From contig MNYA01000453.1 in NCBI GenBank assembly GCA_001872985.1, positions 1-14,761 on the forward strand: 14,761 nucleotides of DNA, written 5' to 3'. The stretch comes from a bacterium CG2_30_54_10 (lineage in GTDB: Bacteria; Muiribacteriota; Ozemobacteria; Ozemobacterales; Ozemobacteraceae). The translations under genes and the position numbers were made by a program. The notes beneath the pieces are model-generated. The model did no database searches. It was given only the letters and a program-made list of their open reading frames with translations, and was not told the origin of the DNA. This document shows positions 1 to 14,460 of this stretch, one piece after another (within the stretch, counting starts at the first letter, position 1; every line of letters starts with the position of its first letter).

Positions 1-63
1 AAAATCAAGCATGGGCAAGACTTCTCTGCAGTTTCAATCCACGCCCCCCCCGCGGGGAGCGAC
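1..63 (-). CRISPR. Leader-proximal end of a subtype I-C CRISPR array (one repeat, partial first spacer)
   Basis: The repeat is at 31-63 (33 nt). Read on the minus strand it starts GTCGCTCCCCGCGG and ends GCGTGGATTGAAAC, the form typical of type I-C repeats. Repeat bases 3-10 and 15-22 pair as an 8-bp stem with one G-U pair and a GCGG loop. Cleavage at the base of this stem would leave the 11-nt 5' handle TGGATTGAAAC expected of I-C crRNA. Positions 1-30 are the first 30 nt of spacer 1, cut by the window edge. The orientation, with the leader and cas2 upstream on the same strand, makes this the newest end of the array. Only one repeat copy is visible, so its exact length rests on family knowledge. 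Confidence 0.9.
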
Positions 64-302: not shown

Positions 303-593
303 CTAAACAATCAAAGTCCCCTCAGGATCGTATCCAGGCTTCGCGCCGACATGTTCGACCCGGCCATGCCAATTGCTTCCGAGAAAGTAGAAACGCAAAC
401 TGTCAGTCTCCTGCTCGATAAGGTTGCGCAACTTTCCTTCCAGCGCGGCCCACTGGCCCGGGTCCACCGCGCACTCGAAAACAGATTTTTGCACGCGCTG
501 GCCCATATCCTCGCATGCTTTGGCAATCTTGCGTAATCTGCGCCGACCTGCCGGGGTTTCCGTATTCACATCGTAGGTCACCAGAACCATCAT
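303..593 (-). CDS. cas2: CRISPR-associated protein Cas2 (subtype I-C)
   Basis: The 96-residue product is a normal Cas2 length. The N-terminus VLVTYDV carries the conserved beta-1 aspartate (D8). The QKSVFEC segment near residues 35-41 and the tail ending EGTLIV are typical of I-C Cas2. Cas2 dimers bridge two Cas1 dimers in the integration complex that inserts new spacers at the leader-repeat junction. Two adjacent ATGs (593 and 590) are possible; GGAG lies 7 nt before the ATG at 593, so I chose that one. The gene follows cas1 by 24 bp and is the last operon gene before the leader. Confidence 0.95.
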   Translation of the reverse strand: MMVLVTYDVNTETPAGRRRLRKIAKACEDMGQRVQKSVFECAVDPGQWAALEGKLRNLIEQETDSLRFYFLGSNWHGRVEHVGAKPGYDPEGTLIV

Positions 594-617: not shown

Positions 618-1649
618 TCATTTCCAGATGAAGGGCGGGTAGCCATCGAGATCCCCTCGGAGATGCCTCGCCAACAACAAAGCCTGAACATGGGGAAGCA
701 GCCCTATCGCGACTTTTTCATCGAGAAAGGGATGCTGGATGATTTCCTGTTTGCGCTTCTGATAAGCAACCAAAAGAGCTCTCCGAGTTTCATCGTCCAT
801 TCGCACCGCGCCGGTCTCGGTCTTTTTGAAGCCTTTTGGACGAATCTGCTGCAGGTTCACCAGTGAAAGAGCCAGGCGATCTCCCAGGAATGGCCGGAAC
901 TCTTCCATTAGATCAAGGGCCAGACTTGGACGGCCCGGACGATCGCGATGCAGGAACCCAACCGCCGGGTCGAGGCCCACCCCTTCAAGTGCGGATGCCA
1001 CATCGTGTGTCAGAAGCGTATAGATGAATGATAGCAGGGCATTCATGTTGTCGAGTGGGGGACGGCGGTTCCTGTCGCGAAAGGCGAAAGCCTCCTTTTC
1101 GACCAGAACCAGATCATCGAATACTTCGAAGTAGACACGCGCGGCATCCCCTTCCACGCCCCGCACCGAGTCAAGAGCAATGGTGGGGTCGCGCAGTCGT
1201 TGCAAGGCACTGTCCAATTCACGGGCTGCCTGCCCCAGCCGTTCCGGGGCTTGATCTGAACGCTCCCGCGCCGATCGGAGCAACACCGATCTACAGTTGG
1301 CGATCTTGGCGCTCACCATGGCCCGAGCCAACCCGGAGGAAGCGACCGGATCATCAGCACGGCGGTATTGCTCCCGTCGCAGGAGAACATTGCCCGAAAC
1401 CGGCCCCTGTACACGAGCCAGAAATCTGCCATGGCGGTCGAAGAAAGCGACATGGACGCCCCTCCTTCCGCACAAACCCAACAGCGGTGGGCTGCACGAG
1501 ACCTGGTCGAAACAGATGATCGATTGCAAAGTGTGAATCGGAATCTTTAGTTTAACCTCTTTCGCAACCCGCACCACCACTACTTCCCCTTCATGATTGA
1601 GGTAGGCTTTCTGGGTCGTCACGAATAGCGTGTTGAGTAGTTTTTTCAT
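618..1649 (-). CDS. cas1: CRISPR-associated endonuclease/integrase Cas1 (subtype I-C)
   Basis: The product has 343 residues, the usual size for I-C Cas1. The metal-binding set is intact: E166 in RGVEGDAAR, H234 in GFLHRDRPGR, and D246/E249 in LALDLMEEFRP. The N-terminal beta-rich domain covers roughly residues 1-85, followed by the helical catalytic domain. It integrates prespacers together with Cas2, and Cas4 trims and orients them. The ATG at 1649 overlaps the cas4 stop (ATGA), with GAGG 7 nt upstream, indicating translational coupling. Confidence 0.97.
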   Translation of the reverse strand: MKKLLNTLFVTTQKAYLNHEGEVVVVRVAKEVKLKIPIHTLQSIICFDQVSCSPPLLGLCGRRGVHVAFFDRHGRFLARVQGPVSGNVLLRREQYRRADDPVASSGLARAMVSAKIANCRSVLLRSARERSDQAPERLGQAARELDSALQRLRDPTIALDSVRGVEGDAARVYFEVFDDLVLVEKEAFAFRDRNRRPPLDNMNALLSFIYTLLTHDVASALEGVGLDPAVGFLHRDRPGRPSLALDLMEEFRPFLGDRLALSLVNLQQIRPKGFKKTETGAVRMDDETRRALLVAYQKRKQEIIQHPFLDEKVAIGLLPHVQALLLARHLRGDLDGYPPFIWK

Positions 1650-2359
1650 GAGCTGGCCTCGGTTTCAGGCTCGAAAAGAGACTCCAGGTATTTCCTCGCG
1701 CTGCGGGGGGACTTGGCCATTTTCGGAATACACTGATCCACCAGTGAACACGATTCGCATTTCCGATCGAACCGACCACTGGGCTTGGCGGCACCCGCTG
1801 CCAACTCACGAAGACGAATCAGAAGACGGGCGGTCTCGTCACGCAGTCCCTGGTCGATGGATACTTCGCATCGTTGGTGGGGGTTCCCGTAATACAAAGC
1901 GCCTTTGGGCACTGGTGTTGACATCATCTCCTCGAGGCAAAGTGCCTGGGCACAAAGCTGGACTTCGTCGCAGTGTTCCGTTTTGGGTTTCCCGAACTTG
2001 AACTCAACAGGAAAAGGTCGCCACCAACCCTTTCGGCCAGGCAGCTTGGCGGTTTCACCCGAGCATTCTTCGGGCAAACGGTGGAACTCGACCATGTCGG
2101 CCTTGCCGATCAGACCCCAACGCAAAGACCTAAGAGAGAGGCCGCGGGCGATTCGGAGTTCCTTGCGCGTCTCAGCCTCCGCACCATGGACCTTCTCGTG
2201 AAGAATTTTCCCGCCTGCAGTGAAGCGATTCTCCTTCCATTCCCCTTCGAGATGAATGAGTGCCCACTGCCGCTCGCAAAACAAGAGGTGCTGGAGCGCC
2301 GAGATGGGGATCAGCTCATCCTCGGAAAAGGAAATTGGCAAGCAGGGGTCAGCCATCAT
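1646..2359 (-). CDS. cas4: CRISPR-associated exonuclease Cas4
   Basis: The product has 237 residues. RecB-type nuclease residues are present: H54 (ILHEKVH), D88 (GLIGKADMVEF), E119 and K121 (PVEFKFGKPK), then the QLCAQALCLEEM helix. Four cysteines for an Fe-S cluster are seen at C28 and at C201, C204 and C210. Cas4 processes prespacers by recognising the PAM end before Cas1-Cas2 integration. The start is one of two adjacent ATGs: 2359 overlaps the upstream stop as ATGA, while 2356 overlaps as TGATG and sits 7 nt after GAAGG, so 2356 may be the one used. It overlaps cas1 at its 3' end. Unusually, its upstream neighbour is a nucleotidyltransferase rather than cas7. Confidence 0.95.
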   Translation of the reverse strand: MMADPCLPISFSEDELIPISALQHLLFCERQWALIHLEGEWKENRFTAGGKILHEKVHGAEAETRKELRIARGLSLRSLRWGLIGKADMVEFHRLPEECSGETAKLPGRKGWWRPFPVEFKFGKPKTEHCDEVQLCAQALCLEEMMSTPVPKGALYYGNPHQRCEVSIDQGLRDETARLLIRLRELAAGAAKPSGRFDRKCESCSLVDQCIPKMAKSPRSARKYLESLFEPETEASS

Positions 2360-2796
2360 CCCGCCTTCGACTTGGGAGCAGGCCGTTTCTTCAGCGACCG
2401 TACTTTTTTGAGATTTGGCTGGTCAAGGCATTCGACCACGGTGGAATCCCCTTGTGCGGCTTCATAGATTATCTTTCGGGTTGCCATGATCGACTCACGT
2501 CGATACGGATTGCGGATTGCCTTTTGCTCAACGAGATCGACTTTCCTTCCTAAGATTTGCTGAAGGTTTTCTTGCAAATCCATGAGGTCGAAGAGACTCC
2601 AGTTGGCGGCAGGATCGAACGTCAGCAGAACGTCGATGTCGCTTTCGGGGCGGAAATCATCACGCAACACCGAGCCGAAAAGTGCCAGTTGGGTGATACG
2701 CCACGTTTGGCAAATTTCACGTAAACGAACCTCGTCGAAAATGACCCGAAGCCCCAGAACAGCAACATCAGATTTTTTTTCGGAATCAAAGACCAT
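2356..2796 (-). CDS. Minimal nucleotidyltransferase (MNT/MntA-like), inserted in the cas operon
   Basis: The product has 146 residues from the ATG at 2796. It shows the DNA polymerase-beta-type core: FGSVLRDDF then ESDIDVLL, giving the Gly-Ser and the two metal aspartates, with the third aspartate in KVDLVE. The set looks catalytically intact. Such proteins are usually antitoxins that modify a partner HEPN ribonuclease, but no HEPN gene lies next to it here. The tail is basic (KKRPAPKSKAG) and nearly matches that of the upstream small protein. GAAGG is 7 nt before the ATG, which overlaps the previous stop as TGATG. A TTG one codon earlier is a less likely start. The family call is firm; the target is unknown. 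Confidence 0.85.
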   Translation of the reverse strand: MVFDSEKKSDVAVLGLRVIFDEVRLREICQTWRITQLALFGSVLRDDFRPESDIDVLLTFDPAANWSLFDLMDLQENLQQILGRKVDLVEQKAIRNPYRRESIMATRKIIYEAAQGDSTVVECLDQPNLKKVRSLKKRPAPKSKAG

Positions 2797-2850
2797 CAAA
2801 CGGCCTTCGACTTGCGTACAGGCCGTTTCTTCTCTGACTGCACTTCCTTG
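2361..2850 (-). repeat. Near-duplicate 50-bp segments flanking the nucleotidyltransferase gene
   Basis: Positions 2361-2410 and 2801-2850 match at about 39 of 50 bases without gaps, offset by 440 bp. The core GGCCGTTTCT is identical and GCCTTCGACTT is shared. Each copy encodes the basic C-terminal tail of a cassette protein, its stop codon region, and the GAAGG ribosome binding site of the next gene. Similarity fades beyond the segment. Confidence 0.75.
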
Positions 2851-3026
2851 AAAAGCGAATCGATATCCCCATCGGGAAAGAGAAGATGGCGGTCCCGGGT
2901 GTAATCCCCGGACCCAGCCCCAAACTGTTGGAGGAACCGAATCAACCCATCCGGCCCAAGGTCGCGTAGGAGAGCTTTCAGACCGGTCTGCCGGATTTCT
3001 TCATTGGAAATGGATCGAAGTTTCAT
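2796..3026 (-). CDS. Small probable antitoxin paired with the PIN-domain gene
   Basis: The product has 76 residues, starting MKLRSISNEEIRQTGLKALL. It looks mainly helical, with a GPDGLIRFLQQF segment near residues 24-35, GSGDYTRDRH near 39-47 and a basic tail KKRPVRKSKAV. From memory, similar small proteins sit next to PIN-domain toxins. I chose the ATG at 3026 because it overlaps the PIN stop (ATGA) and follows AAGGAAG. A longer reading frame back to 3050 would add eight residues inside the PIN gene and is less likely. The order is toxin first, antitoxin second. The antitoxin role is inferred from size and position, not from a recognised DNA-binding domain. Confidence 0.65.
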   Translation of the reverse strand: MKLRSISNEEIRQTGLKALLRDLGPDGLIRFLQQFGAGSGDYTRDRHLLFPDGDIDSLFKEVQSEKKRPVRKSKAV

Positions 3027-3469
3027 TTTATTTCTTCCTTCAAAAGCCATGATATCGGATTCCCGACAATAAAAGGAATCTCCAGCCTAAACTTTTCCGC
3101 CCTCCGGAGAAGTCTATCGTCGGTTGTTAGAAAGGCATCGGCTCTTCCGACGGCGGCGAGAGCCAGGTGAAGAGCATCCAAACGGTGAAAACCGCTCTCC
3201 TTGAAATGACGGCCATGCTTTTCGACCGCGGCAGAAAGACCGATGAATTCATGCGCTTCACAACTCAATGCGGTCAACAATGCCCTGCGTTGCAAGTCGG
3301 GCGCCCGGCGAATTTCATAATCGATCGCCGAACTGGAAAGCCAGGTCCAGATTTGGCCCCGACACCGACGGATAATCAGGAAAACCGCTTCCGCTTCGAG
3401 CCTGTTTCTCACCACGCTCTGATCGTCAAAAGGGCGGTTCAAACAGCAAACATCCAGATACAATCGCAT
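3023..3469 (-). CDS. PIN-domain ribonuclease, VapC-like toxin, inserted in the cas operon
   Basis: The product has 148 residues. PIN-domain acidic positions are visible: D6 in YLDVCCLNRPF, E52 in the IDYEI helix, D98 in HRLDALHLALA, and D111 with D117/D118 in ADAFLTTDDRL. These would bind the metal ions for RNA cleavage. The 'LYLDVCCLNRPFDD' opening is a recognisable subgroup of chromosomal PIN proteins. The start ATG at 3469 has the strongest ribosome binding site in the operon (AGGAGGTGA). It lies 73 bp after the cas7 stop, the longest gap in the operon, which leaves room for its own promoter. It overlaps the small downstream gene by ATGA. Family is firm; RNA target unknown. Confidence 0.88.
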   Translation of the reverse strand: MRLYLDVCCLNRPFDDQSVVRNRLEAEAVFLIIRRCRGQIWTWLSSSAIDYEIRRAPDLQRRALLTALSCEAHEFIGLSAAVEKHGRHFKESGFHRLDALHLALAAVGRADAFLTTDDRLLRRAEKFRLEIPFIVGNPISWLLKEEIK

Positions 3470-3475
3470 GTTTCA

Positions 3476-3484
3476 TCACCTCCT
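3476..3484 (-). promoter_or_regulatory. Strong Shine-Dalgarno site of the PIN gene
   Basis: AGGAGGTGA lies with AGGAGG 9 nt before the ATG at 3469. It is closer to consensus than the sites of the neighbouring cas genes and fixes the PIN start. Confidence 0.8.
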
Positions 3485-3492
3485 GGGGGTAA

Positions 3493-3503
3493 TTCCAATG
3501 GAA
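3493..3503. promoter_or_regulatory. Palindrome upstream of the PIN gene, possible operator
   Basis: TTCCAATGGAA is an 11-bp perfect palindrome (5-bp arms) in the cas7-PIN gap, 9 bp before the Shine-Dalgarno site. Its location would suit autoregulation of a toxin-antitoxin module, but no clear promoter accompanies it. Confidence 0.3.
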
Positions 3504-3542
3504 GACCGGCTTTTCTTATTTGGAACCGCGCCAAAGAAGGAT

Positions 3543-4640
3543 TCAAACGAGTTCCAGGATCTCCACTCCCTTTGTAAGCCCATCGCGGTCGATTGAAACC
3601 ACATAGTCGCTGAAAGCCCGGGACGGCTTGGCGGCATCTTTTTTGGTGACTTTTATCCGGTCGAAAAGGTCATGGGCGTGAGCATTGCCAAGCGCGGTAG
3701 CGTGCTTGAAGACGATGAGCTTGCGAGTCGCCATCATACCCCGGGCCGCGGAGCGGTCGTGCTCGAACATGTTCTCCAGGGCTTGCCATAGCAGGTCGAG
3801 ATCCTCCTGGGTGAAACCTGTCTGGGCTGCAAGATGGGCGGAGATAAACCCATGGGCAACGTAAACGCCGTATGGAACCGTGTTCTTGCGGCCCATGGTG
3901 CGGTTGTCACCATGCTGTTTTTCGGCTTCAGCCTGTGTAGCCACCGCCATGCGGGTAATAGAATGCTCCAGGGAGACAATTGGATCAACGGAGCGAGCAA
4001 AGGTCATTTGCACTGGCCCTCGTACTTGACCGCAATTAGGAGCTGATTTCAGAGAGAGAACGGCGCCGAAGGTCCGAATGTCAAAGAAGTCCCGGCACAT
4101 GCGCTCACGCCCCTTTTCTGTTTCCTCCGCGGTTGGTCGCCGAGGCTTGGCTTCTTTCAAACAACCTTCAATGACGGCTTTGACCTCGGGGCCCGGGTTG
4201 GTTTCTTTGATCCAAACCTTGATTACCTTTTTATCGGCATCTGGAGCAATGACCAGGGAAATTCCCCCGTTGTTCTCGCCTTCTTCGAGGGTTACCCCAT
4301 CAGGCAAAACCAGGTCGGAAAAAATATCAACTATATTCTCAGGAACGGGTTTCGCCGATGATTCTCCTGTTTTGAACCCCAGATCCTTAAATACCTGAAC
4401 ATGAGCATTGCCCAGAACTGCTTTTTCACGAATGTAGATTCCGTAGGGTGGTTTGAATTCCTTTGTGAGTTGCACAAAGTTGCGAATCTTTCGTTTGAGG
4501 CAGACATCGGTGACAAGTCCCATTCCCGTTTCTGGGTCAACTCGGGGAAGGTTGCCTGCATCAGGGTCGCCGTTGGGATTGCCATCCTGAACATCGAATA
4601 CGAGGACAAAATCGAACCGATTCTTGATTGGGGTGCTCAT
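3543..4640 (-). CDS. cas7: CRISPR-associated protein Cas7 (subtype I-C, Csd2)
   Basis: The product has 365 residues. Family hallmarks include [19 protein letters not shown] near residues 15-33, [63 protein letters not shown] and [11 protein letters not shown]. Cas7 subunits line the crRNA to form the backbone of Cascade. The protein is longer than the roughly 280-300 residues I expect for I-C Cas7. The extra length falls between FKDLGFK (about residue 90) and [11 protein letters not shown] (about 175). It starts at 4640, overlapping the cas8 stop (ATGA). The next gene leftward is the PIN gene rather than cas4. Confidence 0.96.
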
Positions 4641-5023
4641 ATTGTTTTCCTTTCGACTCCGTTGTTTTCGTGTCTCTTGGTGAAGAGATCCTGCATCTGG
4701 TGGTAATAGCCGATGGCAAAACGCCCCTGATCGGCCAAATCAAGGTGGGCAGGGAAACCGATGGAAGGGATGCCAGATACAATTTCCTGCATCTGTCGTT
4801 CCCGGATGATGCGAAGGCCGACAGAGAGCTTGGCCAAATGGTGGACCCTCAGTCGCATGAGGTTTCCAAACACAGTGACCGGGGAACAGGAAGCCCCGCC
4901 GTAGAATCGATCGCGGATGGTGCTGTTAGTCGATCCCTGGGCCTCGCCCTGCACTTTTTCCAGGAGGGCAAACAACCTACCGAGTCGATAACCGACATTG
5001 TTGTTGAACACATCAAGACCCAT
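4637..5023 (-). CDS. cas11: Cas11c small subunit from an internal start within cas8c
   Basis: In frame with cas8c, ATG at 5023 is preceded by AAGGAG with a 6-nt gap, a near-ideal ribosome binding site inside the coding region. It would produce the last 128 residues of Cas8c as a separate protein beginning [22 protein letters not shown]. Internal initiation giving Cas11c is established for type I-C systems, and the sequence here matches the expected location. Cas11c forms the inner filament of Cascade that stabilises the non-target strand. The helical segment around [17 protein letters not shown] and the [11 protein letters not shown] motif are in this part. Expression is inferred, not seen. 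Confidence 0.8.
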
Positions 5024-6439
5024 TGTCATCTCCTTTTCCCGTTGGGGATTGCCAAAACGAAGAGAGCGGTTGAGGCACGCCTTGATAAGAGCTGCCCGCT
5101 CGAAAGTAATGTGAGCTTCGGAATGCCCAGTCTTCTTGTTTTTCTTGCCCTGCTCGGCGCGAATTCTACGAACACTTGCCTGAAGGAGCGTTGCAGGATA
5201 TGGGGTACCGGAAAATATTGCCCGCATCGTTTCCCCAACCAGATTTGGGGGGATGTTCTTTTCGTCTTCCTGGGATGCGATCGCGCGCAACAACCGCCGG
5301 AGCGGAAGGGCATTTTCCCTTCTTCGATCGGGTACAATTGCCAGGTCATCAACATGCCTTTTGAGGAGGGAACCAATTTCCCTGACTGATCCTTCCGTCC
5401 AGAATCTCACTGCAATTCGTGCGGAGTTGGGCGAAAGACCCAGAACGAAAAACCGGTTTTCATCTTCCGGAATTGCGAAGGACCCATTCCAAATAGAGTC
5501 GTATAGAGCCTTGACGGCTTCTATGTCCTTGTCAGGATCATCTTTGGGAGGTTCAGAGAAAAAAAAGGGAACCGCGCATTCGAAAGGGGACTCCTTGGCA
5601 CTCCAAAAAACGGTTGTCGCATCCCCGATCTGGACTTTTTGCTTGGAGTCTTTCCTCAACAAATAGTTCAACCCTGTGGAATACGCAAAGGATGCGCATT
5701 TTCCGATTGGGGAGTTATTCCCCTGCTCCTTCAAAAAAGAGGAAAAAGCTGGAACAGCACCCCCATTAATACCGTTGGCTACCTTGTTGTTAACCGAAAC
5801 CAGGCTTGCACCTGTTGGGTTCGCACCGCGAACCCCTTTAATGGGCGGTTCCAGGGGAACGATTTCATTTTCTAAACCGGTCACCAAGCACCGACCGACC
5901 TTGCCCGGGGATTTGGTAACCGAGGAAATCACCCCACGAACTTCAGGGTCATCGGTTACGGGGACTCCATCAATCGCAATAAGCATGGGTTGGTTTCTTT
6001 TTACAACAGTTGGCCAAAGCGGATCGCTCTGAATCTTTGCCTTATCCAGCTGGTTTAAAAAACTCAAAACAGCATTTACCTTGCCGGATTTCTTCCCAAG
6101 AAGCTTAACTCGCTCTTCGAAAGCCAAATGCTGTCTTCCAACCCTCTCGGGATCAGGTGGTTTTCCATTTTTCCTTTGAACAGGAATTCCAAAAAGATAT
6201 TCGAGGTTCTCCCAGAGCAGGTTGGCTTTGATTCCATTTCCCTTCTTTTCGCCTAAGGAGGGAACAAGATATTCCTTGCCCCTTTTTTTTTGGCCAACTC
6301 CTTCGCTCATTTCTTTGAAACCCAAGAAATTTCCCGATAGATCAATGACTGCAAGATAGGAGAACTCCCGGCGTTCCCATCCTTCACGCGGCAGATCAGG
6401 TTTGCGGTCGTAGTATTCCTTGAGGGCTTGGAGGATCAT
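4637..6439 (-). CDS. cas8c: CRISPR-associated large subunit Cas8c (Csd1)
   Basis: The product has 600 residues, normal for Csd1/Cas8c. Typical segments are [15 protein letters not shown] near residues 28-42, [13 protein letters not shown] near 215, [10 protein letters not shown] near 285, [18 protein letters not shown] near 350, and the Cas11-like C-terminal part from M473. It is the large subunit of type I-C Cascade, which recognises the PAM and starts target unwinding. ATG at 6439 overlaps the cas5 stop (ATGA), and its stop overlaps cas7. An internal start gives a separate small subunit. Confidence 0.96.
5030..5035 (-). promoter_or_regulatory. Internal ribosome binding site for Cas11c
   Basis: AAGGAG encodes Lys-Glu of Cas8c and lies 6 nt before the in-frame ATG at 5023. 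A second in-frame ATG at 5029 directly follows it and is too close to be used. Confidence 0.75.
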
Positions 6440-7149
6440 CGGCGCACCTCCGGGCTGTCGCGGTCAGGAACGGCGATAACGCCATTATCAAGCTTTGCGC
6501 GGAAGAACATGGGCTTGATATCGGCGGGATCAGTGAAGTCCAGATCATAAAGCATGAAACCAAGTTCATGGGAATCGGTGATCGGTGCAGGGGAAGTCAA
6601 CTTTGGGTCAACCAACTGCACATTGGCGGCGAATTCCCGGCAACCCAGATATGGCTGGTGGAAATGCTGGCCCTTCCTGGCTCGCCGCTCGAACATGGCG
6701 GCATACTTGGCCTCCGTTTCGTCAGGACGACGATCGGGAATTTTCATGGCCACCGCTTCGCCCACATCAATCAACCAGTCGGGCACAGGGTTGACGGTCT
6801 TGCCGCGCTTGTCGGGTGGAATGAAACGGAACTCCCCATGCAAGCGATACCGGACATCACGCAGGAAGAGCCCGGCCCGCTGTTGGCGTTCATCCTCGAC
6901 GAAAAAGCCGTCAGATCGCGGCGATGCGACTTTCCCGACTTCGTTGCGGCGAACCGAAATCCACTTTATGGGGGCCAACACCTCGATTCGCTTGATCTGC
7001 CAGAAAATGGCAGGTTTCCAAAGGATGGCATCGAAAATGGCCCGGGCCGCGGACGGGGTAATCACATCATAACTCACCCGCTCGACCTTCATTTCCGGTC
7101 GGGTGAAACAGGCAAACGGCCCACTCACCTCGAGACAGAAACCCTTCAT
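6436..7149 (-). CDS. cas5c: CRISPR-associated Cas5c, pre-crRNA processing endonuclease
   Basis: The product has 237 residues, beginning MKGFCLEVSGPFACFTRPEM. Hallmarks are YDVITPSAARAIFDAILWKP near 27-46, GLFLRDVRYRLHGEFRF near 93-109 and the signature KGQHFHQPYLGCREF near 159-173. In type I-C there is no Cas6; Cas5c cuts the repeat at the base of its hairpin and then caps the crRNA 5' handle. I chose the ATG at 7149, with AAGGAG 6 nt upstream, 22 bp after cas3. The frame stays open further upstream, but the extra residues overlap cas3 and look non-coding. Confidence 0.95.
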   Translation of the reverse strand: MKGFCLEVSGPFACFTRPEMKVERVSYDVITPSAARAIFDAILWKPAIFWQIKRIEVLAPIKWISVRRNEVGKVASPRSDGFFVEDERQQRAGLFLRDVRYRLHGEFRFIPPDKRGKTVNPVPDWLIDVGEAVAMKIPDRRPDETEAKYAAMFERRARKGQHFHQPYLGCREFAANVQLVDPKLTSPAPITDSHELGFMLYDLDFTDPADIKPMFFRAKLDNGVIAVPDRDSPEVRR

Positions 7150-7171
7150 ATTGGTCTCCTTCCCTTGCGCT

Positions 7172-9400
7172 TCAAATGCATAGATCCTCCGGGCTGTAGG
7201 CCTCGCGGTGCAAGTCCAACCCGAGGTTTTCCCGATAGAGGGTCGTATCGACCTGGACCAGAATCCGGTCATGGAGTTTCTCGATGAAACTTTGCGTCAA
7301 AAGATGGTCAGCGGTGGGGCCGGGAACTGTTACGGTAAACCTCTGAAGTGCCCGCATAATCTCTCGAGTCGGCCCGCCAAATCGCAAACGCTCGATCAAC
7401 TTTTCGTTATTCCCATAGCTAACAACGATTGGAACGGAGTATTCATCGATCAACCGGAATTCCCCGCCCGCCGTCCGAAATTGAACATGGCCTTCATGAT
7501 TCACGTTCTTAACGAGATTGTCCCTGAGCCACGTTTCACCGAGATCATTCACGCTCGAGTAAAACAACTGAAAGTAACTCCGGAAGATTTCAGGATCAGC
7601 CGGCGCAAACTCCGGCGCAGCGCACAACTCCCTGGTCGTGTCCCGACCTTTGCGAAGCAAGTCGGGAAGCTTTCCCTCGGGGGGAATAAAAACATGCACC
7701 ATTCCGGGGCGGTCGAGACGGCCTTCGCGATTGCATCGCCCGGCGGCTTGATTGATGGAGTCGAGGCCTGCCAGAGCGCGATACACGACAGGAAAATCCA
7801 TATCCACGCCTGCCTCCACCAACTGGGTGCTGATGACGCGAACTGCATCGCCCGTCTCGAGCCGCGCCTTGATCGTGGCAATCACATTGGATCGATGTTG
7901 TCCGCACATAAGCGCCGAGAGATGGATGGTATCTTCCGGCATGGCCTTCCAAAGGTCAAAACAATCACGACGTCGATTTACGATGCAAAGCACCTGCTGA
8001 TGCTTTTGAAGTTCGGCGGCCAGCGTCGGCCAATCGGTCTGCCGATCCAGATTTTCGGGAAACCGGATGCTGGTGCGCTGGAGTTCCCCGAAAAGGCTGG
8101 AAGGGTTGGGAATGATCTCCCGGGGTGGCCGTTCGAGATATCGATCAAGAGCGGGTTGAGTGGCAGTGGAGAGGACGACCGTCACCCTGTAATCACTCAC
8201 GAGGCGGTTGAGCGCCTCAGTGCATGGAAAAAGCCATTTTGGCGGCAGGAGTTGCGCTTCATCAAGAATCACCACGCTGTTCACGAGGTTGTGAAGCTTT
8301 CGACACCGGCCCGGCTTGGCTGCATACAAGGACTCGAAAAACTGGACATTGGTCGTTACGATGACCGGGGCGTCCCAGTTCTCGGTGGCCAGTGAAAGGC
8401 CCGGGGTCTCCCGCTCTCTTTCGGGGGCGATATTCGAGTGGTGCTCGACCACGTTGGTTGCACCTAAGAAACCCCTCAGAACATCGGCGGTCTGCTCGAT
8501 TATGCTGGTGTATGGAATGACATAGACGATGCGCTTTTTGCCGTGGCGCACGGCATGATCGAGAGCGAAGGCGGTTCCAGAGAGGGTTTTCCCTCCACCG
8601 GTCGGAACGGTCAGCGTGAACATTCCCGGCTCCTCGAGAGCGGCTTTCCGGCAATCGGCCAGGATGCCTGCGCGAATCCGGTTGATGTTCTTTTCCGGCG
8701 ATCTGGCTCTGGCTTGCACCATCATCGCTTCAAGCGCCAAATCGAAGCGGGGTTTTAATTCCGCCAGGGTTGGAAAAACCAGACGACTGGATGCCTTTTT
8801 GGAGTCCATGAAGGCTTCAGTATCGAGAAAATCGGCGTCAACCAGGCATGAAAAGACCATTCGCACCCAAAGGTGGAAAGCCATCGGCTCACCATTGCGG
8901 CATTGTCCGGCAAAATCCGGGGGTCGCAAATCGAGCGGCAAGACACCCGCGAACTCGCTGACTTTATCTCGAATCCCTTCGAAAACCGGTTTTTCAGCTT
9001 CGAGTCGCTGAGAAAGTGAGTCGCGCCCTCCGTGCCAATCAGGCAAACCAGCATGGTGACCGGCGATCAGATAAGCGATTGTCCTGCCGATAATCGAGCG
9101 GGAGGGTTGACAATTGTCCAGGGCGAACACCGCGCCACACCCTGAGTGGTTGATCCGGCCCCCTGTCGCCTCACCATCAAACTCGGAGGAGTCCAGGCCA
9201 TTTTCCCGGAAAAGATAAGCCTGGAAATCAGGATGCACCTTTCCCAAATCGTGAAGTCGACCGGCCACCAGACCCCACTCTCGCGAGGAAAAACCGGCGG
9301 CGAATCCGGCCGCTTTCTCCGCTACCGAGGCAAGATGTTCCTCCAACGGCTGCCATTTATCAGGAGGAAACCCCTCCAACGAGTGCGCGAAACAAGGCAT
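7172..9400 (-). CDS. cas3: CRISPR-associated helicase-nuclease Cas3 (subtype I-C)
   Basis: The product has 742 residues. The N-terminal HD nuclease part shows H22, the HD pair at H50-D51 (GRLHDLGKVH), H85 and GHHAG at 114-118. The superfamily 2 helicase follows with Walker A PTGGGKT (266-272), DEAQ (380-383), STAT (411-414), STQLVEAGVDMDF near 535 and QAAGRCNREGR near 560. Cas3 is recruited by target-bound Cascade and degrades DNA with its nuclease and 3'-5' helicase. The start MPCFAHSLEG is typical of the I-C group, with GGGAGG upstream of the ATG. It is the first operon gene, about 30 nt after the predicted transcription start. Confidence 0.97.
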   Translation of the reverse strand: MPCFAHSLEGFPPDKWQPLEEHLASVAEKAAGFAAGFSSREWGLVAGRLHDLGKVHPDFQAYLFRENGLDSSEFDGEATGGRINHSGCGAVFALDNCQPSRSIIGRTIAYLIAGHHAGLPDWHGGRDSLSQRLEAEKPVFEGIRDKVSEFAGVLPLDLRPPDFAGQCRNGEPMAFHLWVRMVFSCLVDADFLDTEAFMDSKKASSRLVFPTLAELKPRFDLALEAMMVQARARSPEKNINRIRAGILADCRKAALEEPGMFTLTVPTGGGKTLSGTAFALDHAVRHGKKRIVYVIPYTSIIEQTADVLRGFLGATNVVEHHSNIAPERERETPGLSLATENWDAPVIVTTNVQFFESLYAAKPGRCRKLHNLVNSVVILDEAQLLPPKWLFPCTEALNRLVSDYRVTVVLSTATQPALDRYLERPPREIIPNPSSLFGELQRTSIRFPENLDRQTDWPTLAAELQKHQQVLCIVNRRRDCFDLWKAMPEDTIHLSALMCGQHRSNVIATIKARLETGDAVRVISTQLVEAGVDMDFPVVYRALAGLDSINQAAGRCNREGRLDRPGMVHVFIPPEGKLPDLLRKGRDTTRELCAAPEFAPADPEIFRSYFQLFYSSVNDLGETWLRDNLVKNVNHEGHVQFRTAGGEFRLIDEYSVPIVVSYGNNEKLIERLRFGGPTREIMRALQRFTVTVPGPTADHLLTQSFIEKLHDRILVQVDTTLYRENLGLDLHREAYSPEDLCI

Positions 9401-9634: not shown

Positions 9635-9922
9635 GTAAGAGTTAAGCGGTTTGAAATAAGAAAGACGAAGAAAGCTGGGGAAACGGAAAAAAGGGAGAAA
9701 GGATAGGATATTTGGCCGCGGATTAACGCAGATTAACGCAGATCTGGAGTGGAAGGAAAAAAATTCAGAGTTTACCTGTTTGGGAAAATTGAAGAGAAGG
9801 TGAATGGGAGAAAATGGAGAATGGGAGAAAATAAATTTAGGGTTCTTGAAAAAAATTCTCCATTTCTCCATTTCTCCTTATTCTTTCCTCGTTCTCCCCT
9901 TTTCAAACCGCTAAACTCTTAC
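9635..9922. mobile_element. 288-bp MITE with 22-bp terminal inverted repeats and 8-bp target duplication
   Basis: The left end starts GTAAGAGTTAAGCGGTTTG (9635-9656 is the full 22-bp repeat). The right end, 9901-9922, is its reverse complement at 21 of 22 positions. Both sides carry the same 8 bp, CTATTCTC (9627-9634 and 9923-9930). The interior has no real gene. It contains a purine-rich central hairpin (about 9804-9832 with 9855-9882) and one arm of a 29-bp repeat. Ends beginning GTAA and an 8-bp duplication fit the IS66 family, which could move it in trans. The boundaries are read directly; the family is inferred. Confidence 0.85.
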
Positions 9923-9997
9923 CTATTCTCAATCCTCTAAACTCATATCAATTCTTTCTTGGTTCCAAATCCGCGTTAATCTGCGTTAATCCGCGGC
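9715..9997. repeat. Pair of 29-bp inverted repeats built on the decamer GATTAACGCA
   Basis: The arm at 9715-9743 contains GATTAACGCA twice in tandem after GCCGCG. The arm at 9969-9997 is its reverse complement at 28 of 29 positions. The arms are 225 bp apart; the left lies inside the MITE and the right lies 39 bp beyond its target duplication. From memory, GCAGATTAACGCAGATTAA-type strings recur in intergenic DNA of many unrelated bacteria; their function is not known to me. Confidence 0.75.
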
Positions 9998-10009
9998 TAA
10001 AACTCTTCT

Positions 10010-10040
10010 CTTTCTTTCTTTATTTCTTTCTTTCTTTTCT
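10010..10040. repeat. TTTC microsatellite-like tract
   Basis: An imperfect run of TTTC units interrupted by TATTTC and ending TTTTCTTC. It lies just past the end of the M50 gene on that gene's transcribed side, where the minus strand reads as GAAA repeats. It is prone to slippage; no function is evident. Confidence 0.6.
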
Positions 10041-11004: not shown

Positions 11005-14000
11005 TCATGCCGGGGTCGTTCCTGTCGGGGTTGAGCCTGACGGGCTTTCCCCAGCCGGAATTGACTCGGTCGGTTTCCACCGGAAAAGATGGAACATCAG
11101 GCAGGTAATGAATGTCGCGAGGAATCCCATTTTGAATGAGTTGTCGGCCTGATAAAGTTTCATCATCAGCGTGAAAGCCAACCCGGCTGACAGCAGTGCC
11201 ACCACGGTGAACCAGAAGAAACGGTATCGGCCGGTGAACATGAAGAGAAGTGAAATTCCGGCCAGGGCGCCGCACAAAACAATTCCCACCTGGAACATCT
11301 TCCCTTGCCCCGAGCGGGGGCTGACCAGAACGCCTGCCATGTGTGGCGGTTCGCCGTTGGGTTCGATCTGCTGCATCAGGAAACTCGTCGACCAGGATGT
11401 GGTCGGAATCATGAACTTGACAGGCAGGAGCCCGACGACGCTGCTTCCGCCGACATCTCCGCCCAGGACGGACTGGGTCTTGGTGGTCATCAAGGCACCC
11501 AGGTCGAGCCCTGGAAACTGCTTGCGACCATCGAGCAATGGCTGATCCGGGCGATCCATTATCCGGTCCACGTTTCCTTCCCCTCTCATCAGCTCGAACC
11601 CTTCGGGCAGGAAGGCCACCCAGCTCAACTCGCTCACGTCCAGATGGACCCGCGGCAGCTCCAACCTGAGCGCCTGGAAAGACCGCAAGGGTCCCGCCAA
11701 TCGCATGGCGAAAATGATCTCGACGGGAAACGGCTGCGGATCGCCATTGACCATCGGCGAACGGATGATGGGAATATTGAAGACTTTCTTTTCAGGATCG
11801 AATCCGGCCTTGACCGCGAGGTTCGCCACCTCGCTGCTCCACAGGGTGGTCGTGACCGAACCGAGTTCGGGGAGCCGGATCTTCAGGAACTGCTCGGAAT
11901 TGTTGCGGACCTCAAAAGCCACCCGGGTCAACAGGAAGCCATCCTCGTTGACCAGGGTCATGGCCTCGGCCCGATCGACCACGGCCGAGACCTGATCGAC
12001 CGCCTTCGGCCTGGTCAGGCTCAACTGCAGCTTGTTCGGATGCTTGATGAACTTGAAGGCCAAAGGCAACTTCTCCGGCGGCTGCCCTTTGTAATCACGA
12101 AGGAACTCACCCACATCGATTACGCTATATCCGACTAGCGTTTCAGGGGCACCGACCTCGAAGGACGGAAGACAGCCGACGGCTAACAACCCCGTGCTGC
12201 GGTCGGCATTTACAGGTATCATCTCAGGAACCAGATAGAGTTCATTCTCTTTCAACCGCTGGATGTCCTCCTCGAACTCGACCGCAAAACCGACCACGCC
12301 CTTCACCTCGGAATTGAAAGCAATGTTCAGCCGTCTGAACTTCTCGTCAGCAACCTCCTCGATCTTCCAATCATCGATCGTCCTGTCCTCGACCTTTAGA
12401 ACGCGAATTTGCGGCGGAACCCGCAAGGTGAAACTCGAAATTCCCTCGGAGCCCATTACCTGCAAGACATATTGGTTGCGACCCTGCACGAAGCCCTCCT
12501 CGAACATCAGCAGGTTCTTTTCGGTCACCAGCACCCGGGTCTCCTCGTGAAGAACGACTGGTGCCGAAGCCGCCGCGGTTGCCGAACCCGAGGCCGACTC
12601 CGCCTCGCCCTGCTCATCGGTGACCGCGGCAGGAGAAGACATGCCCAGCCGCCGCGCCAGCTCCACTTTCACCCTGGAGGTCGGAGGCAGAATTGCCCGG
12701 AAGGTGGTACCCCGCGGTCCGGAGGCTACCACCGTCAGGATCCCGGGATCGAGCCAGGCATCACAATCGCCCTCGGGAACGAGTATCTCGAGAGTCGAAA
12801 GGCAGAACGGCACCATTGGCAGTTCGAACCGACGGGTGTTGAACTCGGTTGCCGAGAAGGGAAGAAAGAAATCGACATCGAGCACGCGCGAACCCGTGCC
12901 GTTGGTGATCAGGCCATAGTGGCTTTCACCGGAATCCTGGGCGGTGACCAGGTCGAGAGGGGCCGGTGAACCATCCAGCGATACCTGGGAGGGAATCACC
13001 ATTGAAGACAACAACCTGATTGTCTTCCAGCCCTCGTTGAAAAGCTCGATCTCGAAATGGCCCCGGAACTTCACCCCGCGTTCCCCAATTGTTCCTTTGT
13101 ATTCAGCCCGCCGGGTTGAAAAATTGATGGGGGACCGGATGGGCTCGGGAGTCGGCTTTTCGCCTACATCGAGCAGATATCGATAGTCGGCTTCCGGGAC
13201 GATGACCATACTTTCCTCCGGACCCATCACCTTCGACAGTTCGGTGAAGGGGACCATCACCCGGACTTCCGGGTGAGGGGCGCCAAACGCCGCCAGGGTT
13301 CCAACCAGCAGAAAGGCCACCAACGCTATGGAAACGGGCACAGGCGAAACCACGGGCTCACCTGCCCGACCGGATACTGGCTGTTCTGGCTCAGGCTCAG
13401 GTTCAGGTTCAGGCTCCTTGCCCGCCTTGTCATCGAAGTTGATACCCGAAACAGACGGACGAACATGACGTCGTGGTTGGCTTCCCAATCCACCGGAGCC
13501 GCCGGGGCCACCGGAGCCGCCGGGGTGCTTATCATCGCCCGGACCTCCCGGGTTGCCGCCTCCGTCGCCGAATGAAACATTCTGAAGAGAGATGAACCAT
13601 CCGACCTTCCAGGCCACCCCGACGGCCAGGGCAAACCACAAACCGTAATTGGCCGAATCGCCTATGGCGGCGAACATCTGGTCCCAGACGGACAGGACCC
13701 CGATGATCGCGCCGGCCATTAGAAGCTTCGGAAAATAGCGGTGGTAGGTTCCTCCGACAAAGTAGAACCCGGCCAGCAAACCCAGCAGGAAGGCGGTGAT
13801 CTTCAAACCTTGCAGGATCTCCCATCTCATGAACCCGAACCGAACTGTCGGGCAGGTGGTGTTCCTGGTCAGCGCTCCATCGCCAGCTTGATCGGCCAGA
13901 ACCAGATCCCTGGTAAGCGAGTAGAAGTTCGAAGTCAGGACGAACTTGGTTTCCAGGGAAAGGGCTCCCTTGGTGCGTCCCCCAGAGAAGCCTTTCCTGG

Positions 14001-14460
14001 GTTCCGGAGCGCCTGGGCTCCCCGACGGTGCTGAGGTCTGAACGTGGGTCGGGCTGTGAACTCCGGCCATGTTCAGGATTTTGTCGATGTCCTGGTCGAC
14101 TCCGCCGCAGCCCTTGCAGTAGACGAAGCCGGTGCTGCTCAGATCTCCGGAAGCGAAGTATTCGCATGTCATCATGGGGGGAGTGATCGGGCTCTTCAGA
14201 TACTGGCCCTTTAACAACGCCGGCATATCCAACCCCGTCATCATTGCGGGATGGTCCATGTTGTACATTTCGACGGCTCCCTGCAAAACCCGCTGATTGG
14301 CATAACAGGCCTTCATCCGGCTCTGCTCCCTGGCCTTGCGGAAGTTGGGGGTGGCAATGGCCGCGAGAATGCCCAGAATCGCCACCACGATCATCAATTC
14401 AGCCAGGCGAAAACCCTTGCCGGAGAAGACAAAGGAAACGAGCCCGATATGGCGAGCCAG
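11005..14460 (-). CDS. Prepilin-like N-terminus fused to a multi-pass membrane protein with a large beta-rich domain
   Basis: Numbering starts at the TTG at 14397 (1130 residues). Just upstream, in frame, lies SGKG-FRLAELMIVVAILGIL, a type IV prepilin cleavage site and helix. Only a CTG at 14460 could start it; no ATG, GTG or TTG occurs before the in-frame TAA at 14482-14484. Residues 20-110 form a short pilin-like head with CKGC. Membrane segments follow near 197-217, 225-245 and 252-270. Then come a Gly/Pro linker (277-306), a Glu-Pro run (328-338), another membrane segment (353-372), a long beta-rich region (about 375-1000) and three membrane segments near 1035-1054, 1057-1080 and 1088-1107. 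The tail is Ser/Thr/Pro-rich. Function unknown; a surface or envelope role is inferred. Confidence 0.75.
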   Translation of the reverse strand: MARHIGLVSFVFSGKGFRLAELMIVVAILGILAAIATPNFRKAREQSRMKACYANQRVLQGAVEMYNMDHPAMMTGLDMPALLKGQYLKSPITPPMMTCEYFASGDLSSTGFVYCKGCGGVDQDIDKILNMAGVHSPTHVQTSAPSGSPGAPEPRKGFSGGRTKGALSLETKFVLTSNFYSLTRDLVLADQAGDGALTRNTTCPTVRFGFMRWEILQGLKITAFLLGLLAGFYFVGGTYHRYFPKLLMAGAIIGVLSVWDQMFAAIGDSANYGLWFALAVGVAWKVGWFISLQNVSFGDGGGNPGGPGDDKHPGGSGGPGGSGGLGSQPRRHVRPSVSGINFDDKAGKEPEPEPEPEPEQPVSGRAGEPVVSPVPVSIALVAFLLVGTLAAFGAPHPEVRVMVPFTELSKVMGPEESMVIVPEADYRYLLDVGEKPTPEPIRSPINFSTRRAEYKGTIGERGVKFRGHFEIELFNEGWKTIRLLSSMVIPSQVSLDGSPAPLDLVTAQDSGESHYGLITNGTGSRVLDVDFFLPFSATEFNTRRFELPMVPFCLSTLEILVPEGDCDAWLDPGILTVVASGPRGTTFRAILPPTSRVKVELARRLGMSSPAAVTDEQGEAESASGSATAAASAPVVLHEETRVLVTEKNLLMFEEGFVQGRNQYVLQVMGSEGISSFTLRVPPQIRVLKVEDRTIDDWKIEEVADEKFRRLNIAFNSEVKGVVGFAVEFEEDIQRLKENELYLVPEMIPVNADRSTGLLAVGCLPSFEVGAPETLVGYSVIDVGEFLRDYKGQPPEKLPLAFKFIKHPNKLQLSLTRPKAVDQVSAVVDRAEAMTLVNEDGFLLTRVAFEVRNNSEQFLKIRLPELGSVTTTLWSSEVANLAVKAGFDPEKKVFNIPIIRSPMVNGDPQPFPVEIIFAMRLAGPLRSFQALRLELPRVHLDVSELSWVAFLPEGFELMRGEGNVDRIMDRPDQPLLDGRKQFPGLDLGALMTTKTQSVLGGDVGGSSVVGLLPVKFMIPTTSWSTSFLMQQIEPNGEPPHMAGVLVSPRSGQGKMFQVGIVLCGALAGISLLFMFTGRYRFFWFTVVALLSAGLAFTLMMKLYQADNSFKMGFLATFITCLMFHLFRWKPTESIPAGESPSGSTPTGTTPA
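13388..13417 (-). repeat. In-frame hexamer repeat encoding Glu-Pro
   Basis: Five 6-bp units (GGCTCA, GGCTCA, GGTTCA, GGTTCA, GGCTCC) encode the alternating Glu-Pro linker of the fusion protein. Because the unit is 6 bp, slippage would change linker length without shifting frame. Confidence 0.8.
13490..13525 (-). repeat. Perfect tandem 18-bp repeat in the Gly-rich linker
   Basis: CCACCGGAGCCGCCGGGG occurs twice back to back (13490-13507 and 13508-13525). It encodes two copies of a six-residue Gly/Pro/Ser unit in the linker before the Glu-Pro run. Confidence 0.85.

Follow-up and report, generated by a model that had tools for sequence, protein, structure and literature searches.

Toxin-antitoxin-like genes between the interference and adaptation genes of a type I-C CRISPR-cas operon

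Toxin-antitoxin (TA) genes near CRISPR loci are already known. In the available parts of two reports, a FLSHclust survey describes a large number of CRISPR-linked TA modules (PMC10910872), and in a network survey several putative cas genes carry Abi or TA annotations (PMC6967390); those parts hold neither the type I-C arrangement nor the gene pair described here. A proposal that immunity is coupled to suicide dates from 2012 (PMC3506569, in excerpt). A term search of the main text of a 2025 review on TA and CRISPR, as far as that text was available, returned no 'type I-C' (PMC12737573), and none of the literature matches listed reports an insertion hot spot in type I-C operons or a PIN-domain gene paired with a small gene inside a cas operon; both may be in print elsewhere.

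We analysed a stretch of 14,761 nt (the window), which is an entire contig (G000:C456) of a fragmented genome that is 67% complete. Three described systems resemble parts of it. As in VapBC type II modules, a PIN fold with conserved acidic residues lies beside a small overlapping partner gene, and the two-gene pairing is conserved (54 of 73 loci); the window differs in that the toxin gene comes first, the partner belongs to no recognized VapB family and the pair is embedded in a cas operon. The nucleotidyltransferase (MNT) of the window carries the sequence GSX10DXD, which we take to be the MntA motif of MntA-HepT type VII systems, and its relative in the same slot of genome G001 has a full MNT-HepT pair. 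In contrast, the window has no adjacent HepT, its MntA score is below cut-off and the MNT tail matches the end of the small protein. The available part of the report on CreTA, an RNA TA system guarding CRISPR effectors, also ties addiction to CRISPR (PMC9458426), whereas both partners in the window are proteins, encoded within the operon. An antitoxin RNA resembling CRISPR was not seen at the window, where an exact search found the repeat-start motif once, at the array (31-63).

Gene order and junctions of the locus

The window contains cas3, cas5c, cas8c, cas7, cas4, cas1 and cas2, all present in this order on the minus strand. Its features are as follows.

31..63, minus strand: type I-C-type CRISPR repeat, one copy found on the contig, whose end truncates the array
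303..593, minus strand: cas2 (PF09827; TIGR01573 68.3 bits, cut-off 24.5)
618..1649, minus strand: cas1, type I-C (TIGR03640 511 bits, cut-off 385)
1646..2359, minus strand: cas4 (TIGR00372 106.8 bits, cut-off 65); start overlaps the MNT stop
2353..2411, minus strand: 59-nt direct repeat D1, copy 1, in the MNT tail and cas4 start
2356..2799, minus strand: MNT nucleotidyltransferase with C-terminal extension (PF01909); likely ATG at 2796
2793..2851, minus strand: 59-nt direct repeat D1, copy 2, in the small-protein tail and MNT start
2796..3026, minus strand: small 76-amino-acid protein, probable antitoxin, no named family; longer start possible at 3050
3023..3469, minus strand: probable toxin, RNase-like with a PIN domain; PF01850 match below cut-off (E 0.001)
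3470..3542, minus strand: 73-nt gap after cas7 with a strong Shine-Dalgarno sequence
3543..4640, minus strand: cas7, type I-C (TIGR02589 387.9 bits, cut-off 182.25)
4637..6439, minus strand: cas8c (TIGR01863 467.5 bits, cut-off 218.65)
6436..7272, minus strand: cas5c (TIGR01876 221 bits, cut-off 85)
7172..9400, minus strand: cas3 (TIGR01596 HD 95.5 bits, cut-off 43.45)

For cas3 the HD model scores above its cut-off and the Cas3 core model below (87.3 bits, cut-off 102.45). A preliminary description of this DNA had placed a PIN gene, a small gene and an MNT gene between cas7 and cas4, and gene calls and family profiles agree. The junctions it gave, ATGA for PIN/small, TGATG for small/MNT, ATGATG for MNT/cas4 and ATGA for cas4/cas1, are those of the sequence. 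As to its further suggestion that translation of cas4, cas1 and cas2 is coupled to the insert, overlapping starts tie the insert to cas4 and cas1; cas1 and cas2 are separated by a 24-nt gap. The PIN gene is preceded by a strong Shine-Dalgarno sequence, AGGAGGTGAT, at 3475-3484 on the minus strand, inside the 73-nt gap. No sigma-70-like promoter was found on either strand between 2300 and 4000, where 0.9 would be expected.

The two copies of D1 are 78% alike, and the small gene and the MNT gene each end in one. One frame of the window's CRISPR repeat encodes VAPRGGGVD followed by a stop; a relative of the small protein, P0004 (88% identical over 59 residues), ends in VAPRGGGVD, matching this frame.

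The PIN protein, its small partner and the nucleotidyltransferase

The PIN protein matches PF01850 weakly (20.1 bits, cut-off 23.6) and matched no NCBIfam model, and a search of solved structures gave a best E value of 0.68. It has 1231 relatives; among the best 120 of them, D6, E52, D98 and D117 show conservation of 99% or more, and position 106 deviates, being A in the window-like P0026 and E in 93% of those 120. In a tree of PIN proteins the window falls into a supported group of six rows (97/92) together with the protein of G011, a genome of the same family; the other four rows are a duplicate of the G011 protein and three proteins whose context is unknown. The G011 protein is identical to P0038, which is attributed to Candidatus Riflebacteria and suggests a Riflebacteria-like phylum for the window. 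On the tree the two cas-linked rows, window and G011, do not pair with each other most closely, and two changes of the cas-linked label are needed. It is possible, from these comparisons, that the association of the pair with CRISPR within this lineage is old.

No Pfam, NCBIfam or PADLOC family matched the small protein at E 0.1, and a search of solved structures with it gave nothing convincing. Twenty-five proteins are listed as matches, the window's own included. One scan of genome contigs found 75 loci that encode relatives, using exact peptide patterns, by which near relatives of the window may be missed. These loci come from many phyla, and in 54 of 73 a PIN gene lies immediately upstream of the small gene, two of the 75 being set aside because they had no small ORF call. 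Because the PIN gene in both the window and G011 has a cas gene upstream and is overlapped by the small gene, the latter is the candidate antitoxin closest to it, with MNT as a further candidate in the window. The small protein may not always be the antitoxin, and in some loci it may act as an accessory and not as the only antitoxin, given its neighbours at three loci read by eye: at L104 and L110 it follows a different PIN gene already preceded by a Phd-like gene, and at L229 a ParE/RelE-like pair. The tandems of Phd-like gene, different PIN gene and small relative span, by eye, 4210-5398 in L104 and 4358-5252 in L110.

The CRISPR link of the pair depends on where one looks. The preliminary description had staked that link on the genes not being found mostly as a free-standing island. 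Hidden Markov models built from type I-C loci found a cas match in none of the 75 small-protein loci, so that within the reach of the scan the pair is mostly free-standing. Within the lineage this is not the case. The phylum of the window has nine small-protein matches in 7 of 39 genomes, and the three best-scoring are CRISPR-linked, namely the window, G011 (in the order cas4-PIN-small-cas1) and G002:C67. Five others have no cas match within 11-17 kb, and the ninth, G001:C39, lies at a contig end, outside the cas model scan.

The MNT protein scores well against PF01909 (66.6 bits, cut-off 21) and below cut-off against the MntA_antitoxin model (52.8 bits, cut-off 60). The GSX10DXD motif is present in the window and in all 120 of the best relatives out of 2696. 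No HepT gene lies beside it; cas4 follows. Its C-terminal tail, encoded in the 59-nt repeat, resembles the end of the small protein, and among the same best 120 of 2696 relatives such a tail occurs only in the window-like P0146 and P0147. P0148, which is 82% identical to the window MNT, ends without it. The sole same-slot MNT relative in our survey of type I-C loci is that of the G001 MNT-HepT pair (L033; 58% identity over 97 residues). The cas4 most similar to that of the window is likewise in G001 (78% over 113 residues), whose slot holds MNT-HepT and no PIN-small pair. From these comparisons, MNT was acquired separately from the PIN-small pair, and it may be a leftover antitoxin or a modifier of another partner.

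The preliminary description treated the three genes as one unit, and on this point we depart from it. Among the 120 type I-C loci surveyed, the three-gene order within a cas operon was seen nowhere but in the window. We rule out the cassette as a unit, the PIN-small pair alone being the common form and the tail being limited to P0146 and P0147. At L065, read by eye, a PIN-small pair adjoins an MNT gene and a possible HEPN-like gene, with no cas match.

Inserts at the junctions of type I-C operons

Using the Cas7 family TIGR02589, we gathered 120 type I-C loci, of which 13 belong to the phylum of the window and 107 lie elsewhere, 73 of the latter coming from one sample centred on genome G346. 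Three cas7-like loci (L035, L036 and L037) were excluded as not type I-C. Matches outside the phylum that scored under the cut-off were also left aside, as was G623, a match at a contig edge; L032 and L033, which score too low owing to a partial cas7, were retained as same-phylum loci. Gaps of at least 200 nt occur at 74 of 323 adaptation-side junctions and at 12 of 337 interference-side junctions (Fisher p 2e-14, uncorrected for kinship and, the loci being related, overstating the evidence); the totals omit one cas7-cas3 and one cas1-cas3 pairing. By junction, these gaps number 49 of 114 for cas7-cas4, 19 of 108 for cas4-cas1 and 6 of 101 for cas1-cas2, against 10 of 108 for cas3-cas5c, 2 of 117 for cas8c-cas7 and 0 of 112 for cas5c-cas8c. 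Counting only gaps with an ORF of 75 or more amino acids on the same strand gives 40, 17 and 5 on the adaptation side and 2, 1 and 0 on the interference side, in the same order, by a script that could miss a gene where a longer ORF lies on the opposite strand, as in L025, L033 and L034. In these sequences the seam between interference and adaptation genes is thus an insertion hot spot of type I-C operons.

Of 61 recognized inserts, 37 overlap the downstream cas gene and 15 the upstream one, with start codons chosen by script, overlaps being preferred alike on both sides. At cas7-cas4 25 of 39 overlap cas4 and 5 overlap cas7. The two directions differ little at cas4-cas1 (12 downstream vs 9 upstream of 18), and of three inserts at cas1-cas2 none overlaps downstream and one upstream. 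Junctions without an insert overlap as well, 27 of 65 at cas7-cas4 and 62 of 89 at cas4-cas1.

The cargo is varied. By cluster counts there are 18 Bro-N inserts (13 of them at cas4-cas1), 13 RhuM inserts (all at cas7-cas4), 10 four-helix proteins of the 23S-rRNA-IVP type, six HEAT, three DUF559 and two Y1 transposase inserts, the families being named after Pfam scans of one to three members in each cluster, with three members of the IVP-type cluster (c5) below cut-off and the transposase just at it; Fic is also among the cargo. The RhuM inserts recall B. fragilis, where the available part of the report places RhuM ORFs between cas1 and cas9 (PMC5704556): foreign genes of a shared cargo class lie within a cas operon, although CRISPR type and junction differ.

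Six of 13 loci in the phylum, one of them the G001 remnant, carry TA-like genes, as do 5 of 107 elsewhere, a comparison made post hoc, after the data had been seen, with a generous count outside the phylum: L134 (DUF2283-DUF433), L193 (ParE, opposite strand), L216 (HTH alone), L217 (PIN) and L224 (Fic). That such genes stand at this seam, as the preliminary description proposed for the window, is borne out by recurrence of the position in G011, G001, G037 and G002. Two loci of G037 and one of G002 carry TA-like pairs at cas7-cas4; the DUF4160-DUF2442 pair of the latter (L032) we take to be TA-like, and the unnamed partner at L034 is presumably so. PIN genes number about 11 per genome in both groups (118 in 11 genomes and 155 in 14, row sums by hand in chosen genomes).

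Several observations concern individual inserts. In the G346-centred sample Bro-N genes lie at cas4-cas1 in L165, L177, L180, L181, L194, L198-L201, L207, L210, L219 and L221, and 11 of these 13 overlap the cas1 start or end at most 10 nt away. Bro-N occurs only in the cas operon in 5 of 25 genomes (G032, G520, G577, G624 and G558) and up to seven times in others; outside the phylum, genomes had been selected because they carry the insert, and these figures are no unbiased rate. Genes or fragments of the RhuM cluster at cas7-cas4 (L119, L163, L165, L172, L173, L180, L181, L183, L193, L203, L218, L220 and L222) include several that are clearly shortened, and HEAT-repeat genes lie in the cas7-cas4 gap of L156, L157, L164, L171, L195 and L197. 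Beside the PIN inserts of G037, cas4 itself seems shortened (L025 1-482, L034 1651-2133): matches to the window cas4 break off around residues 121 and 136, respectively, of 237, L025 being at a contig end. We also considered the cargo as a mirror of the local gene pool, which the PIN counts, from genomes chosen and not random, do not support.

Two relatives of the locus have decayed. What remains in G001 is roughly the final 30% of cas7, then MNT and HepT, both open and of full length, and then cas4, of which the first half is kept and runs into a CRISPR repeat. In G002:C67 the small gene, its tail replaced, is fused to a cas4 remnant with a broken start, beside I-C-type repeats. This remnant has the window cas4 as best match (E 3e-7; five other small-protein loci and L149 gave E 0.003 or worse). 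No PIN match was found in G002:C67, so PIN and small genes need not persist together. Another contig of G002 (L032) carries cas7-cas4-cas1-cas2. P0004, with its end equal to one frame of the window's CRISPR repeat, hints at a third such case.

Explanations for the inserted genes

In the reading that we consider best, with a probability of about one half, an addiction-type PIN-small pair hitchhikes in a tolerant seam of the type I-C operon and is coupled there to the adaptation genes. A type II-like pair, with the PIN protein as RNase toxin and the 76-amino-acid protein as antitoxin, would have lodged in the seam, and an MntA-type gene with no adjacent HepT would have joined it separately. The short antitoxin would be made from the same transcript as the cas genes, and if its supply ended the PIN protein would cut RNA; cells deleting or silencing this stretch would be harmed, and the pair would thus persist in the seam. 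The overlapping insert genes would pass ribosomes on to cas4 and cas1. We infer PIN toxicity, neutralization by the small protein, the addiction effect and the single shared transcript. This reading is favoured by the pairing in 54 of 73 loci, the conserved PIN residues, the hot spot at the seam, the unrelated TA-like pairs in G001, G002 and G037, and persistence at the decayed loci. Against it stand a small protein without a known antitoxin family, a window PIN below the Pfam cut-off, the small relatives that follow other TA-like genes at L104, L110 and L229, the lack of a PIN match in G002:C67 and the loss of cas genes in G001.

The decayed loci bear on what such a pair would preserve. The preliminary description had suggested that the insert might protect the operon from loss. 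MNT-HepT of G001 has lost its cas neighbours and so did not protect that operon. At two loci TA-type genes have outlasted cas genes, which, in these few cases, fits self-preservation better than operon protection, and the decayed loci argue against the strong claim that insert genes protect the whole operon. These relatives begin to separate genes that guard the operon from genes that guard themselves.

It is possible, if rather unlikely, that the genes are neutral passengers, the seam tolerating any insertion that keeps downstream genes translated and TA genes being one random class of cargo, merely carried. The very mixed cargo (Bro-N, RhuM, 23S-rRNA-IVP-type, HEAT, DUF559, Y1 transposase and Fic) would fit such tolerance, as would the nearly insert-free interference-side junctions, which encode complex subunits, and the small-protein relatives elsewhere that lack a cas match (0 of 75). 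However, the cargo varies by lineage (TA-like in 6 of 13 vs 5 of 107 loci, post hoc) despite about 11 PIN genes per genome in both groups, and cas7-cas4 inserts overlap downstream more often than upstream (25 vs 5 of 39), though those at cas4-cas1 hardly do (12 vs 9 of 18).

More doubtful is a broader proposal, in which the cas7/cas4/cas1 seam would be an exchangeable slot whose lineage-specific toxin- or defence-like cargo couples to the adaptation genes and gates or guards spacer acquisition, the window having lost HepT and gained the PIN-small pair. A defined seam within type I-C operons that repeatedly acquires unrelated genes, toxin-like and other, directly ahead of the adaptation genes would offer a tractable test of whether toxins guard CRISPR, regulate it or only ride on it.

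The preliminary description also raised the idea that the insert adjusts adaptation gene expression, which seems improbable. The pair or other cargo would set the expression of cas4-cas1-cas2, with translation, and perhaps a TA-regulated promoter, entering at the PIN gene, and adaptation would rise when the antitoxin falls. The strong Shine-Dalgarno sequence of the PIN gene after a 73-nt gap, the overlaps throughout down to cas1 and the frequent overlap of cas7-cas4 inserts with cas4 (25 of 39, against 5 of 39 with cas7) are what this would lead one to expect. However, no sigma-70-like promoter was found in the window between 2300 and 4000 (0 vs 0.9 expected), cas1 and cas2 do not overlap there, and at cas4-cas1 upstream overlaps of inserts are nearly as frequent as downstream ones. 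Insert-free operons overlap too (27 of 65 and 62 of 89), so coupling is not peculiar to inserts.

Least probable of all is an abortive fallback, the PIN toxin being freed to stop phage spread if CRISPR interference fails or a phage halts host transcription: coupling of immunity to suicide has been proposed for cas-linked toxins (PMC3506569, in excerpt) and the seam holds several toxin-like cargo classes, RhuM itself being a proposed toxin (PMC3710099, in excerpt), but nothing here ties toxin release to phage or Cas activity, and the available part of the former argues from toxin-like domains without typical antitoxins, whereas the window has a likely one.

Further features lie upstream of the operon. 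Large, imperfect inverted repeats (79-80%) pair 9686-9748 with 9964-10026 and 9635-9674 with 9883-9922 upstream of cas3, and an ORF of 1130 amino acids with a pilin-like start (11005-14397, minus strand) adjoins the CRISPR operon.
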